This document shows, piece after piece, positions 3,237 through 51,588 of a DNA stretch of 64,000 bases. The stretch's first letter is position 1. Every line of letters begins with the position of its first letter. Location: positions 572,824 through 636,823 of the forward strand of contig NZ_LMUI01000011.1 in the NCBI RefSeq assembly GCF_009765995.1, read 5' to 3'. Position numbers and translations under genes: made by a program. This stretch comes from Methylocapsa sp. S129. GTDB taxonomy: Bacteria; Pseudomonadota; Alphaproteobacteria; Rhizobiales; Beijerinckiaceae. The notes beneath the pieces were generated by a model. That model saw only the letters and a list, made by a program, of their open reading frames with translations. It made no database searches and was not told where the DNA came from.

Positions 3237-4304
3237 ATGGCGAGTGTGAGCATCAAGAACATCCGCAAAGCCTATGGCTCGGTTGAGATGATCCACGGCA
3301 TCAATGTCGAGATCGTTGACGGAGAGTTTGTCACCTTGGTTGGGCCGTCCGGATGTGGGAAATCAACGCTCTTGCGCATGATCGCGGGGCTTGAAGAGAT
3401 TACTTCGGGCGAGATCAGGATCGAGAACCGCGTGGTGAACGACGTGCCCCCGAAGGAGCGCGATATTGCTATGGTGTTCCAGAACTACGCGCTCTACCCG
3501 CACATGACGGTCGCCGACAACATGGCCTTCTCGCTCAAGCTGAAGCGGGCGCCCAGGGCCGAGATCGAGACCATGGTCGACAGGGCGGCGGATATCCTCG
3601 GTTTGCGAGCGTTGCTCGATCGCTATCCACGCCAACTCTCGGGGGGCCAGCGGCAACGTGTCGCCATGGGTCGCGCCATTGTGCGCGATCCGCGCGTCTT
3701 CCTGTTCGACGAGCCGCTTTCGAACCTCGACGCCAAGCTACGCGTCGCCATGCGCGCCGAGATCAAGAGCCTCCACCAGCGGCTCAAGACCACCACGATT
3801 TATGTCACCCATGACCAGGTCGAGGCGATGACGATGGCCGACAAGATTGTGGTGCTCCATGGCGGCCATGTCGAGCAGATCGGAGCGCCGCTCGAGCTTT
3901 ACGACCGGCCGGCCAATTTGTTCGTGGCGGGCTTCATCGGCTCGCCCGCGATGAATGTGCTGACGGGCAAGATCGAGGGCGGTGCGAAGCCTGCCTTCAA
4001 GGCCGATAACGGTGTCGTGATGCCGCTCATGACGGCCCCCACGGCTTCAGAAGGGAAGCCTATGGCCTACGGCTTCCGTCCCGAGCACCTGCGTATCGCG
4101 CAGGACGGCGTGCCGGCCGAGGTGGTGGTGGTCGAGCCGACGGGTTCCGAGACCCAGGTGATGCTTAGGCTTGGCAGCTCCGACATCGTCGCCGTGTTCC
4201 GCGACCGCATCGCGGTCAGACCGGGCGAGATCATCAAGATTCAACCCGATCTGGAAGCCGTGCATCTCTTCGACGGCGAGAGCGGTCAGCGCCTCGCCGC
4301 ATGA
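3237..4304 (+). CDS. ugpC: Sugar ABC transporter ATP-binding protein, UgpC/MsmK type
   Basis: Cytosolic ATPase of the CUT1 importer, 355 residues. Walker A is GPSGCGKST (36-44), the signature is LSGGQ (134-138), Walker B is VFLFDEP (154-160), and the H-loop His is about residue 192. The C-terminal third has the TOBE-like regulatory fold typical of the family. The ATG at 3237 is chosen over an upstream in-frame GTG because the conserved protein starts with MASVSIKNIRKAYG. It lies 179 bases after the MaoC gene, so it may have its own promoter or be the last gene of the operon. The symbol refers to the family; glycerol-3-phosphate is not implied. Confidence 0.95.
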   Translation: MASVSIKNIRKAYGSVEMIHGINVEIVDGEFVTLVGPSGCGKSTLLRMIAGLEEITSGEIRIENRVVNDVPPKERDIAMVFQNYALYPHMTVADNMAFSLKLKRAPRAEIETMVDRAADILGLRALLDRYPRQLSGGQRQRVAMGRAIVRDPRVFLFDEPLSNLDAKLRVAMRAEIKSLHQRLKTTTIYVTHDQVEAMTMADKIVVLHGGHVEQIGAPLELYDRPANLFVAGFIGSPAMNVLTGKIEGGAKPAFKADNGVVMPLMTAPTASEGKPMAYGFRPEHLRIAQDGVPAEVVVVEPTGSETQVMLRLGSSDIVAVFRDRIAVRPGEIIKIQPDLEAVHLFDGESGQRLAA

Positions 4305-7964: not shown

Positions 7965-8126
7965 TGTAATCCCCTGTGATCGTTGATAATGGCGGCCCGA
8001 CGTTTCGGAAGCCCCGGTCGCTAGGGCATTTACCCCCACACGGCGCCCCCAGCGAGTTCGGCTCCGCCTCTCGCCGCCAGCGGACGACCGAGAAATTACA
8101 AGCATAGCATCCCTCCGTCGCAAAGT

Positions 8127-8142
8127 GAATATATTTGATATT
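8127..8142 (+). promoter_or_regulatory. Left copy of inverted AT-rich operator candidate
   Basis: GAATATATTTGATATT. Its exact reverse complement occurs at 8263-8278, with centres 136 bp apart. It lies just upstream of the GGAGGG-ATG at 8105, in promoter position for the leftward dehydrogenase gene. Confidence 0.6.
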
Positions 8143-8250
8143 TATGCCTATAGTAGCTGTGGCGTGCGGACGACATTCAAACACGCCGTAGCGACAAGGC
8201 TCACCGGGGGCTCCTAGGCGACCATTCAGGGGGTCAAGCCAAAAGGCGGC

Positions 8251-48768: not shown

Positions 48769-50883
48769 CTACGTTTCCGCCGCGGCGTGGCGATAGACGG
48801 CCGCCGCCGCGATCAGCGCGAGCGCCGCTTTGCGCAGACGCTGGAATTCGGTTCCTAAAGCGCCGATCGTCGCGGGCCCGCTAAAATAAGCTGGCCCCGC
48901 CGGATCGGGCGGCGCCTGTTTGTCCGACAACAGGCCGATCAGCCATTCGCGCGTCGCCTGAAGGCGCGGCCCGATCGTCTGGAAATCATCGCCGCCGCGC
49001 CGCTCGCGCATGAACAGCCGCGTCGCCGAGATATGGGCGGCCAAGACATAGCCGGCGATCAGCATGGCGGCCATTTCGTCGAGGCCGCGATGCACCGCCT
49101 GCGGCTCGCCGCCCATTCTGCCAGCCGAATCGGAAAGCGCGGCGATCGCCTCGATCATGCTTTTGCGCGCCATGCGATAGTCCTGGCGCGACGCGCGTTC
49201 GTCCAATGCGACTTTGGCGAAGGCGGCGATGTCCGATTGCAGACGCTGCGCCAGTCGCGGCGCCTCGTTGAATTCCCAGCGCGGCAGCACATGGCTGAAG
49301 AGCTGGGCGAGCGCCGCGCCGACCAGCGTGTCGGCGATGCGCGTCAGGGTCGGCAGCGAATGCGTCGGGTCGATGAGATGTAGCGACATCAGCGCCGTGA
49401 TCGAGGCGCCGACCGAGGCGATGCGATAGCGCAGTCGCGCAAAGCCATGCACGATCGCGAGCCCCAGGGCCTGAACGGCGATCAGCGCCCCGATCGGCAG
49501 CGTCGCGAGCGCGGCGGCGGCGATGAGGCAGCCAATCAGCGTGCCGATGACGCGGTCGTCGCGCCGCTCGCGCGTCAGGCCATAGCTCGCGCGCATGATG
49601 ACGGCGATGGTCAGCAAAATCCAGTTGCCATGCCCCTCGCTGCTCATCGAATGGGCGACCAGCGCTCCCGCCGTCATCGCCAGCGCGAGCCGCGCCGCAA
49701 AGCGAAAGACCGGCGAGTTCGGCGTGAGATGGACGGTCAGCAGTTTCGGGTTGAAGGAGGCGCGCGCCCGGAACGCGGCAAGATCGATGTCGCCGATCGA
49801 CGCGCTGGCGACTTCATCGTCGGACAGCGCCTGCTCCAGCCGCCGGATATGGCCGAGCGCGTCGCCGATCCGCAGCGCGGTCGCCTGCACGGCGGCGAGC
49901 GCCTCCGGGCTGAGTTCGCCGCTGCGCACAAGATTCTCCGCCTCGCGCTTGAGAGCGTCGGCGGCCAAAGTATGGTCGGGCGGCAGGCTGGGCGCCTCGT
50001 TCGACAACAGCTCCAGGCTCAGATGCTGGAGATCGAGCGAGGCGGCGCGCAAGGTGACGGCGATGCGCGCCATCAGCGTCGCGGTCGCCGGCGTCGCGCG
50101 CAACTCCGCCAGTTCGATATGCGCGGCCACCAGCGCGTCGAGCGTATCGAGCAAAATGCCGATCGTCGCCGCCAGGCGCAGGCGTTCCCTCGAGGCTCGG
50201 GGCCGCTCCAGCAGCAGCGTGCGCGCCGCCTGCATTTGGTCGGACAAAGCCGCTTGCTGGCGGATCACCGCGCCATAGACTTCGGGCAGGTCGATCGTCG
50301 GATTGTAGAAGGCGGCGACGCGGCGCAGATAGGCGGAGAATTCGCGCAGGGCTTCGCTTGCCATCATGCGCCGCCCGCCCGCGTCGGTGATCGCCGTCAG
50401 CAGCAGCGCGATCGCGATATAGGCGAGGCCGCCGCCGATCAGCACCGCCTCGTTGCGCAGCGCGCCGGCAAAGCTTGTGGGCGGCAGGCCGAGCACGAAC
50501 ACCATCGGCACCAAGGCCTGCATGCTGAGCGCCAAAGCCCAGCGTCCGTAGCCCGTCACCAGGCCGGCGAGAAACGCGATCACCGCGATCGCGGGAATCA
50601 GCGCCCAGGGAAAGCCGGCGATCAGTTGGATCGACAGCGTCGAGAAAATGGCGATGCCAAAGCCGACCGCCATCAGCAGCGCCTTGCGGCGCAGGGGCGC
50701 CGGCTGGTCGCTGATGCTCGCCGAAATCGCCCCCAGCGTCGCCGGCTGGCCCGCCGCGAAGCCGAACAAGGCCGAAGAAATCAGGCTCACCGCCATCACG
50801 CCCGCCGCGACGCTGATTCCGTTGAGAATATGTTGGCCGACGAGCAGCTTCAGCAGCGTGGGGGAGCGAAGCCATTGGCGCAT
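48769..50883 (-). CDS. FUSC/YccS-type inner-membrane protein
   Basis: 704 residues: two blocks of about five or six membrane helices (near residues 10-165 and 395-520) separated by a soluble helical region. This is the layout of the FUSC family (YccS, YhfK, aromatic acid exporter AaeB). The conserved RxxxTxxG-like part is RRDDRVIGTLIGCLIAA. The proposed role is export of aromatic or fusaric-acid-like compounds. No AaeA-type adaptor gene is adjacent. It ends 12 bases from the mmsB stop, convergent. Confidence 0.88.
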   Translation of the reverse strand: MRQWLRSPTLLKLLVGQHILNGISVAAGVMAVSLISSALFGFAAGQPATLGAISASISDQPAPLRRKALLMAVGFGIAIFSTLSIQLIAGFPWALIPAIAVIAFLAGLVTGYGRWALALSMQALVPMVFVLGLPPTSFAGALRNEAVLIGGGLAYIAIALLLTAITDAGGRRMMASEALREFSAYLRRVAAFYNPTIDLPEVYGAVIRQQAALSDQMQAARTLLLERPRASRERLRLAATIGILLDTLDALVAAHIELAELRATPATATLMARIAVTLRAASLDLQHLSLELLSNEAPSLPPDHTLAADALKREAENLVRSGELSPEALAAVQATALRIGDALGHIRRLEQALSDDEVASASIGDIDLAAFRARASFNPKLLTVHLTPNSPVFRFAARLALAMTAGALVAHSMSSEGHGNWILLTIAVIMRASYGLTRERRDDRVIGTLIGCLIAAAALATLPIGALIAVQALGLAIVHGFARLRYRIASVGASITALMSLHLIDPTHSLPTLTRIADTLVGAALAQLFSHVLPRWEFNEAPRLAQRLQSDIAAFAKVALDERASRQDYRMARKSMIEAIAALSDSAGRMGGEPQAVHRGLDEMAAMLIAGYVLAAHISATRLFMRERRGGDDFQTIGPRLQATREWLIGLLSDKQAPPDPAGPAYFSGPATIGALGTEFQRLRKAALALIAAAAVYRHAAAET

Positions 50884-50966
50884 AAGCGAGGGCGGGGCCG
50901 CGTTGGATGGGAGGAGCCGGCCGCCATCCTAACGAGGGCAGGGGGAAATGTCTTGGCGGGAAAACT

Positions 50967-50990
50967 CCCTCTCCCGCTTGCGGGAGAGGG
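50967..50990. repeat. Short GC-rich palindrome
   Basis: CCCTCTCCCGC-TT-GCGGGAGAGGG, a perfect 11-bp stem with a two-base loop, in the upstream region of the FUSC gene. Confidence 0.75.
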
Positions 50991-51260
50991 CAGGGCGAGG
51001 GCCTTCAGGCGTTCCGCGCTTCAATCGGCGATCATCCTCGCCGCCTTATTTCCGCAAATATTTTCTCCTGTCTTTTCAATGCTCCTGCAAATTTTTTATC
51101 TGGGTCGAGCGTTTGATTTCAAAGGGTTGCAAGCGAAAAATGGGAATTTAAAATTTCTGGAATTCCGGCGGCCGGTCGCTTTCGAACTGCGCTCCCTTGG
51201 CATGGCGATTTATCGTCGAAACGGTCGAGAATGATCCATCGTTTCGCATGGCGGAGCGTG

Positions 51261-51355
51261 TTTCACCCTTGAGGACCTGTCAATGATGGCCCTCCAGGCC
51301 ACCGCCGAAGGCGGCGCGCCTTTGGCGCGTCATTGACAGGTCCTCAAGGGTGAAA
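51261..51355. repeat. 95-bp perfect palindrome with three apical hairpins (cloverleaf-like)
   Basis: Arms 51261-51286 and 51330-51355 are 26 bp and perfectly complementary (TTTCACCCTTGAGG... and ...CCTCAAGGGTGAAA). The 43-base interior is fully used by three directly abutting hairpins: TGGCC-CTCCA-GGCCA (51287-51301), CCGCC-GAA-GGCGG (51302-51314) and CGCGCC-TTT-GGCGCG (51315-51329). No T-run follows on either strand, so it is not a simple terminator. Confidence 0.9.
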
Positions 51356-51480
51356 AAAATGCCTTCATGCGAACAATGGCTCCATAACGCCAGGCGGGGG
51401 CGTTCTCTTTGTCCCGCCCCTTTCTCCTGAGCACCTGCGACCATCATAGTCTGAAAAACAGAATTTCACCAGAAATTGTT

Positions 51481-51588
51481 CGCCCACCGCCCCCACCCCC
51501 TGACCCCTCCCCGCAAACGCGGGGAGGGGAGGCGCCAGGATTTCCCCTCCCCGTGAAACGGGGAGGGGCCAGGGGTGGGGCGGTGCGT
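51481..51588. repeat. Composite GC-rich palindromic repeat
   Basis: CCCCTCCCCGC-AAAC-GCGGGGAGGGG, then a short linker ending GGATTT, then CCCCTCCCCG-TGAAA-CGGGGAGGGG, flanked by CCACCCCCTGA and CCAGGGGTGGGG. The same arrangement recurs at about 62020-62122. Confidence 0.85.

Follow-up and report, generated by a model that had tools for sequence, protein, structure and literature searches.

Architecture of the palindrome

The DNA analyzed here, a stretch of 64,000 nucleotides from the genome of Methylocapsa sp. S129 (the window), contains at positions 51261-51355 a palindrome whose precision raises the question of what kind of element it represents. The original prediction described a 26-bp perfect stem closed by hairpins of 5, 5, and 6 bp, with loops of 5, 3, and 3 bases and no junction bases, and a base-by-base reading found this description to be exact. 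The features are listed below, with the source of each assignment in parentheses.

51216-51389: whole repeat as present in the window (similarity to a complete copy)
51233-51254: left half of an outer imperfect palindromic frame, GATCCATCGTTTCGCATGGCGG (common to other copies)
51255-51260: left side of an internal loop, AGCGTG, facing the -10-like stretch (DNA fold)
51261-51355: cloverleaf palindrome, 95 bp, comprising a 26-bp perfect stem and three abutting hairpins (sequence)
51261-51286, + strand: left (5') stem arm, the template arm if the + strand folds (sequence, DNA fold)
51287-51301: head hairpin 1, TGGCC-CTCCA-GGCCA, 5 bp, loop CTCCA (sequence, DNA fold)
51302-51314: head hairpin 2, CCGCC-GAA-GGCGG, 5 bp, loop GAA (sequence, alignment)
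51315-51329: head hairpin 3, CGCGCC-TTT-GGCGCG, 6 bp, loop TTT (sequence, DNA fold)
51330-51355, + strand: right (3') stem arm, the non-template arm in the single-strand promoter model (sequence, DNA fold)
51333-51338, + strand: TTGACA, -35-like, at the stem top (sequence; GTC and GAC invariant in the alignment)
51339-51354, + strand: 16-nt spacer, stem-paired, differing among copies (copies, alignment)
51355-51360, + strand: AAAAAT, -10-like, 4/6 to TATAAT (sequence, DNA fold)
51356-51361: right side of the internal loop, AAAATG (DNA fold)
51362-51389: right half of the outer frame, CCTTCATGCGAACAATGGCTCCATAACG (common to other copies)

When the palindrome was folded as single-stranded DNA together with 20 additional bases per side, exactly the cloverleaf was obtained (z -11.9, none of 200 shuffled sequences being as good), and this structure is far beyond chance. 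The RNA fold was as extreme (z -11.7), but its favored interior had hairpins 2 and 3 fused into one. In the DNA fold, pairing extended past the perfect stem to an internal loop of 6 x 6 nt and then to a further imperfect outer stem. Of the six bases of the -10-like AAAAAT, one belongs to the stem and the other five to the internal loop, with CACGCT on the opposite arm, and TTGACA is found on the left arm too, as its reverse complement. The predicted lack of a terminator T-run was confirmed by eye: A residues come after the right arm on the + strand and make a T run solely in the opposite strand. At window positions 50966-50992 and 51503-51567, the element is flanked by short palindromes rich in G and C, of the type CCCTCCCCG...CGGGGAGGG, which seem to belong to a different kind of repeat.

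The palindrome as a copy of a dispersed MITE-like repeat

The search for further copies that had been proposed for this element was carried out in its own assembly (6.87 Mb, 62 contigs), where 16 full copies were read with their flanks, in addition to many other matches. Nine distinct arm sequences were present among the 16 copies, that of the window being common to four. With 15 further full copies, nine arm sequences, and relatives in other assemblies, an assembly artefact is unlikely. The copies consist of an inner near-perfect palindrome set within an imperfect palindromic frame, and the complete ones end in imperfect terminal repeats (TAGAGC / GCTCTA). The window copy keeps the frame and lacks the terminal repeats: it (G000:C17:624039-624212) aligned with bases 109-281 of a 379-base query, complete copies spanning about 91-330, and since the similarity stops before both terminal repeats, it seems to have lost its outer ends. 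Inspection by eye indicated TA at both ends of several copies. The repeat is thus MITE-like in being short, non-coding, present in many copies, and bounded by terminal inverted repeats, although the ends are those of the complete copies and not of the window's. Shorter derivatives without the inner palindrome, or lacking even more, were found at L055, L056, L058, L082, and L088. The derivative at L088 (~1481-1552; G000:C6:28349-28419) is about 70 bp long and retains both terminal repeats, with neither frame nor palindrome.

A search for an autonomous partner led to fragments matching at one end only (L162-L164), which carried ordinary genes and, judged by eye on the six best ORFs of each, no transposase. 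Since this search revealed no autonomous transposase bearing such ends, mobility is what we infer from the copies. The gene to the left of the element (48769-50883, minus strand) is present in all 11 genomes of the genus, and in all 10 congeners the 1.5 kb on the upstream side of the orthologous gene was free of the element (no model match better than E 0.02). The copy at 51261-51355 is lineage-specific at its locus. The suggestion of a mobile palindrome therefore stood in part, through the dispersed copies, the MITE-like ends of complete copies, and the lineage-specific locus, mobility itself being deduced.

These data also bear on the chief alternative to a functional element, namely that the palindrome is a non-functional or selfish MITE-like sequence in which template switching equalizes the arms and flips the head, and whose promoter-like parts (described below) are ancestral leftovers or due to chance. 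Dispersed copies with imperfect terminal repeats, deletion derivatives, and a locus empty in all 10 congeners are in its favor, whereas the failure to find an autonomous transposase with these ends speaks against it; overall, we regard it as possible, albeit improbable.

The genomic positions of the copies were assessed with a crude GC3 gene finder. Nine of the 16 lay between convergent genes, which counts against a gene-promoter role of these copies and agrees with a selfish origin. A leftward gene on the predicted output side was called, by the same crude procedure, for four of the 16, including the window copy, which is ~380 nt from the closest start of a leftward gene. No plasmid or transfer context was seen in the 64-kb window. 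The convergent placement (again by crude gene calls) and the very stable RNA fold would also suit a bidirectional terminator or an mRNA 3'-end hairpin between convergent genes. The absence of a T run after the right arm on the + strand, as judged by eye, speaks against this alternative, which would also leave unexplained the scarcity of G-U pairs, the one-armed -10-like hexamer, and the placement upstream of start codons in rhizobia that are reported below; we consider it quite unlikely.

Covariation, head inversion, and arm copying

To follow the pairing across copies, 18 inner palindromes (17 distinct) were aligned. They were taken from 15 of the 16 copies, from an additional type in the same genome, and from a congener (two sequences). 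Among 704 aligned cells, 98.7% were paired and about nine unpaired, as compared with pairing of 43% or less when the partners were slid along as a control; in the 26-bp stem, 98.4% of cells were paired over the 17 distinct sequences. Both-sided changes were present at 20 of 42 pairs, with 112 double-change cells versus three one-sided ones. In hairpin 1, one pair was double-changed from G-C to C-G in other copies, and hairpin 2 was strongly conserved. Pairing is hence maintained in diverged copies, and a recent origin, which had been offered as an explanation for the precision of the palindrome, is not needed.

G-U intermediates were nearly absent from the alignment, and the unpaired stem positions in window-type copies were C.C, G.G, or A.G; such mismatches point to arm-to-arm copying at the level of DNA rather than to selection on an RNA. 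Relative to the frame, the three-hairpin head was in forward orientation in nine of the 16 copies and inverted in seven. Template switching at the hairpin would account for the near-identical arms, for the inversions, and perhaps for loop growth. The inverted heads and the type of mismatch are likewise to be expected of a selfish palindrome shaped by this process. Secondary palindromes were observed within the loop of either hairpin 2 or hairpin 3 at L026 (1984-2108), L012 (2813-2940, second element), L017 (2007-2138), and L028 (1985-2113), two of which contain the same hairpin, GCAGTCAGCTTGCTGACTGC.

Distribution beyond the genome and relation to known mobile elements

Of 149 genomes from the family, 21 (in 14 of 43 genera) contained matches to a covariance model built from the alignment, the threshold being E 1e-3. 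Across genera, the outer frames and mid-stems vary, and the head together with the stem top GTCAAKGA/TCMTTGAC is mostly retained. A search of a named collection with the head pattern revealed 62 loci (63 matches), all alphaproteobacterial by title and assigned to Rhizobiales, Rhodobacterales, Rhodospirillales, Acetobacteraceae, and Brevundimonas; as the pattern contained the shared head and GTCAA, all counts from these loci are conditioned on it. A pattern search of contigs with the window's own frame gave no match, and the window sequence yielded two weak partial matches in plasmids and none in phages.

Several individual loci may be mentioned. Viral contigs provided a single one, L243 (12060-12097, an IMG/VR contig), a cloverleaf with a frame like that of the window's group. 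In the single-contig genome G019, most cloverleafs lie within about a quarter of the chromosome (C1, 0.5-1.6 Mb), and a comparison of element strand with local GC skew (20-kb windows) showed no clear bias. In G093 (L108, 1501-1585), a cloverleaf is located immediately upstream of an ORF that, we presume, resembles an ISL3-type transposase.

A link to a REP-type transposase, which the original prediction had singled out for checking, was addressed by mapping Y1_Tnp matches and by a model search of 20 loci centred on them. If the palindrome were a REP/REPIN element mobilized by a RAYT (Y1 transposase), the six Y1_Tnp matches of its own genome, one of them 1.9 kb from a copy, would find a role, and the hairpin pair of a RAYT-like locus, L147, scored 34 bits with the model (E 8.8e-5). 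However, a strong cloverleaf was present at only two of the 20 loci (L143 and L158), 1.7-1.9 kb from the gene, and the apparent co-occurrence of RAYT and cloverleaf among genomes was therefore set aside. Furthermore, the hairpins of the L147 pair are of another type (GTAG), so that their score of 34 bits indicates that weak model matches are not specific, and G019, a complete genome with 24 cloverleaf matches (both strands counted), has no Y1_Tnp match. The link was not supported, and mobilization by a RAYT appears extremely improbable. The L147 locus itself (3308-3373 and 3903-3969, G000) is RAYT-like, with its own REPIN-like hairpin pair.

The possibility of a structured non-coding RNA, or of an RNA part of an IS110-family element, arose from G087, where a cloverleaf is found 67 bp after the ORF of an IS110-family element (L105, 1501-1588). 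This genome gave 12 equal-score matches, and the four copies fetched were near-identical and situated in the IS110-family element; similar flanks were seen at loci from Azospirillum, Skermanella, and Bradyrhizobium (L183, L185, L192, and L238). In the Methylocapsa sp. S129 genome, by contrast, the sole Transposase_20 match is on C5, and tblastn with the G087 protein gave no match in the loci of that genome that were searched. As to an RNA family, Rfam produced no match at the gathering score here, and the sub-threshold matches were mostly to eukaryotic hairpin families. With almost no G-U intermediates as well, the structured RNA that had been considered was not supported, and we judge either form of this explanation very unlikely.

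A promoter-like layout in the folded strand

Reading outward from TTGAC, the two arms of the elements are near-identical for ~16 bases and then diverge. In the window's family, one arm then carries AAAAAT (or AAGAAT) and the other CACGCT. The layout in the window is thus TTGACA-N16-AAAAAT, with -35 and -10 at promoter spacing in the folded stem as defined by consensus only, the -10 being a 4/6 match and lying within an A run. On the right arm of the frame, a hexamer with A2 and T6 that matches TATAAT at 4/6 was found at a spacing of 15-17 in 15 of the 16 copies, as opposed to none of the 16 on the left arm, a regularity that counts against leftover or chance promoter parts in a selfish repeat. 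Other element families have CATAAT, CAGAAT, or GATAAT on one arm, the spacing being 19 in G019-type families.

The spacing was then analyzed over all families. From 144 listed elements (two collections, some places being represented twice), 15 without a readable arm pair were left out, and the remaining 129 comprised 91 distinct stems, which formed 40 clusters below 70% stem identity. A -10-like hexamer occurred at spacing 16 in nine of the 40 clusters, compared with a mean of 0.44 and a maximum of three in 500 shuffles (maximum at any spacing, four), although the clusters are not independent because the elements are homologous. Spacings of 15, 17, 18, and 19 were represented by 3, 0, 0, and 4 clusters, respectively, and all other spacings tested by three at most; pooled over 15-19, there were 16 counts versus 2.3 in the shuffles (maximum 8). 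The peak at 16 implies that the paired stretch that is free in sequence has the length of a promoter spacer and that the internal loop falls on the -10. Such a peak over diverged stems again argues against a non-functional palindrome.

The orientation of neighboring genes was examined for 43 elements of the G-series genomes with a defined -10 arm, a set from which eight of the 16 window-family copies were left out (the one-arm -10 count given above covers all 16). An RBS plus ORF was found on the output side in eight cases, on the other side in three, on both in one, and on neither in 31.

The original prediction had raised a single-strand role for the palindrome, as a recombination or replication site. 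The anatomy supports a promoter or a priming site, and the recombination-site reading is not favored. Three-hairpin folds are known for primase sites, and the element might be a single-strand initiation site, where synthesis of the complementary strand is primed, as at the sso, M13, or G4 origins, and no gene is driven. It would have the same anatomy as a promoter, and in most chromosomal copies the output side is without a gene; on the other hand, the RBS and ORF at a fixed distance of 57-66 nt in rhizobial relatives (see below) would be superfluous for priming. Initiation of this kind alone seems unlikely to us, and it should be noted that priming and promoter roles are not mutually exclusive.

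For the promoter reading a model is available in Frpo, which is described in the relevant passages of PMC9849209 as a single-stranded DNA stem-loop that reconstitutes -10 and -35 boxes. As a control of the method, a consensus -35/-10 scan was applied to the Frpo2 region of the F plasmid, and it detected no pair on either strand.

Rhizobial relatives precede small genes

Among the 63 head-pattern matches, 39 were accompanied on the left, no more than 200 nt away, by an RBS and an ORF encoding 40 residues or more, and in 37, all Rhizobiales by title, these were located 57-66 nt from TTGAC. On the right side, an RBS with an ORF was found in only seven of the 63, at 90-178 nt, and for positions drawn at random from these loci, such an ORF stood 57-66 nt away in 0.85% of 12400 cases. 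The 37 small proteins fell into four blastp clusters of 20, 14, 2, and 1 members. Pfam gave no match for seven of eight scanned, and the remaining one showed weak zinc-ribbon matches below the cut-offs.

The two arms could be compared for a -10 in 34 of these 37 elements, three being without a readable right arm. In 34/34 the better match was on the arm away from the gene (mean 3.59 of 6, versus 0.94 on the gene-side arm and 2.00 in random stretches). Both A2 and T6 were present on the opposite arm in 32 of 34 elements, on the gene-side arm in none of 34, and in 13% of random stretches; for a match of at least 4/6, the corresponding values were 17/34, 0/34, and 2.5%. Such a match was found in all 13 readable members of the 14-protein cluster and in only 2/19 (mean 3.0) of the 20-protein cluster, the largest group, which has a 55-residue ORF. 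In the folds of the 34 elements, the paired fraction was 0.87 for the spacer, 0.68 for the -35, and 0.31 for the -10, which is thus mostly open. The -10 is opposite to the gene side, where a duplex promoter for the left gene would not have it, and the layout is sensible only if one strand folds: with the + strand folded, the right arm becomes non-template, and the left arm with the gene beyond it becomes template, as expected of a single-stranded promoter.

The genetic context of this arrangement was studied with a 451-base rhizobial query containing the start of the small ORF, the hairpin, and the end of a DUF736 gene. It matched 614 plasmid records in part, some over the DUF736 portion only, and 212 over at least 80% of its length; the 614 were typed as conjugative (435), mobilizable (33), or neither (146). 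Seven annotated plasmid maps were viewed, and in all of them the hairpin lies directly before a small minus-strand ORF. Six have the order traA, gap, traC, traD, traG and, 1.3-2.3 kb further, small ORF, hairpin, DUF736; in the seventh, the hairpin is near virB genes. All seven loci fold into the hairpin, one of them with an altered stem top. Their -10 hexamers, located in six, read CAGACT, CACGAT, or CACCCT (2-3 of 6). In a Rhizobium sp. CB3060 plasmid (L270, ~8080-8240), GTCCAG/CTGGAC replaces GTCAAG/CTTGAC, so that the pairing is kept and the -35 altered. Beyond traG, many genes are oriented back toward the gap between traA and traC, where the Ti-type transfer origin lies, and leading-region genes of the F plasmid likewise read mostly toward oriT, given its presumed place on the F map.

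A fixed arrangement before plasmid genes requires selection, at least there, and it is at odds with a purely selfish palindrome. We conclude that the rhizobial group is probably a new alphaproteobacterial variant of the single-stranded-promoter kind.

Relation between the window's group and the rhizobial group

Of 50 named loci examined with the window's covariance model, 15 gave a match at a threshold of E 1e-3, including only two of the 36 with the ORF arrangement, L214 (E 8e-6) and L234 (2.8e-5). Both have the ORF at 66 nt and a poor -10 (2/6) at spacing 15-18. Most of the unmatched ORF-arrangement loci have a long third hairpin, and none of eight rhizobial plasmid loci was matched by the model at E 1. 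This weak link to the plasmid group is a further point for the selfish alternative. A connection is provided by L109, a member of the window's family, in which the hairpin, with TACCAT at spacing 16, is found 67 nt before a small ORF whose product is homologous to the rhizobial 55-residue protein (blastp 2.5e-5). Judged from these similarities, common descent of the two groups is likely, though not proven, the model link being partial. For the window, the layout is argued from its own 16 copies as well.

Proposed function

On balance, we lean toward the reading that the hairpin in the window is a copy of a dispersed MITE-like repeat whose core has the layout of a single-stranded-DNA promoter like Frpo/ssi. 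According to this proposal, the + strand, when single-stranded, would fold so that TTGACA comes to lie close to the head, within a short duplex made by the stem; the 16-bp spacer would be free in sequence, its pairing being obligatory, and the -10 AAAAAT, present on the 3' arm only, would be kept open in the internal loop. RNA polymerase could then read the 5' arm and the 5' flank as template and produce a leftward transcript or primer from ~51261. In duplex DNA, the pieces of the promoter would not be joined in that way, and activity would presumably be confined to the single-stranded state. The three hairpins would serve as a compact cap, which can invert without loss since the arms are symmetric.

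That the window's own copy acts in this manner seems somewhat doubtful to us. Most chromosomal copies precede no gene, and this one may therefore be a mobile relic. The benefit of chromosomal copies may lie in the priming of single-stranded DNA, or there may be none; we prefer to regard them as a mobile, MITE-like side branch of the module, which either performs such priming or is idle. More tentatively still, one may envisage a modular alphaproteobacterial family of single-stranded promoters that activates entry genes on conjugative plasmids and that has also spread to chromosomes in the form of mobile palindromes, firing or priming wherever their DNA becomes single-stranded, e.g., at stalled forks or during DNA uptake.

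If the proposal is true, the entry genes of rhizobial plasmids could be found by rule. Moreover, the elements would amount to a natural set of promoters whose spacers must pair but are otherwise free in sequence, permitting a direct test of what RNA polymerase needs on a folded strand, and the chromosomal copies raise the question of whether such promoters work outside conjugation.

Comparison with known systems

Short dispersed intergenic palindromes with terminal repeats are well represented by RIME, BIME, NEMIS/Correia, and RUP. Judged by their descriptions, the cloverleaf differs from them in its swapped stems with pairing kept, its invertible head, and its promoter-like loop. With REP/REPIN sequences and their RAYTs, it shares the dispersed intergenic hairpins, but it has no consistent RAYT neighbor. 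Terminal hairpins of the AAV type also combine a long stem, cross-arms, and a head in two orientations (flip/flop); unlike them, the cloverleaf is an internal chromosomal repeat and not the end of a replicon. The M13 ori and the sso of filamentous phages and rolling-circle plasmids are hairpin DNAs read by RNA polymerase when single-stranded, whereas the gene context of the rhizobial relatives points to gene expression.

The statement that no element of this form has been described held for the titles and abstracts of open-licence papers that were screened, yet Frpo/ssi is a close described kind. As portrayed in the pertinent parts of PMC9849209 and PMC11541004, these elements of F, ColIb-P9, and related plasmids resemble the cloverleaf in that a folded strand brings -35 and -10 together, and single-stranded promoters are used before leading-region genes (PMC11541004), much as the rhizobial relatives are placed before small genes near transfer genes. 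In PMC11541004, single-stranded promoters were searched by similarity to five known Frpo/ssi sequences, and the words Rhizobium, Agrobacterium, alphaproteobacteria, and DUF736 are absent from its main text. By comparison with Frpo/ssi as presented there, the cloverleaf has another sequence, a three-hairpin cap, and a one-armed -10 in an internal loop; it is alphaproteobacterial, known here from sequence alone, and also dispersed in chromosomes within MITE-like repeats. Should the reading proposed here be true, the alphaproteobacterial group would be structurally distinct from the known single-stranded promoters and recognizable by covariation together with a -10 on the arm where a duplex promoter would not have it.
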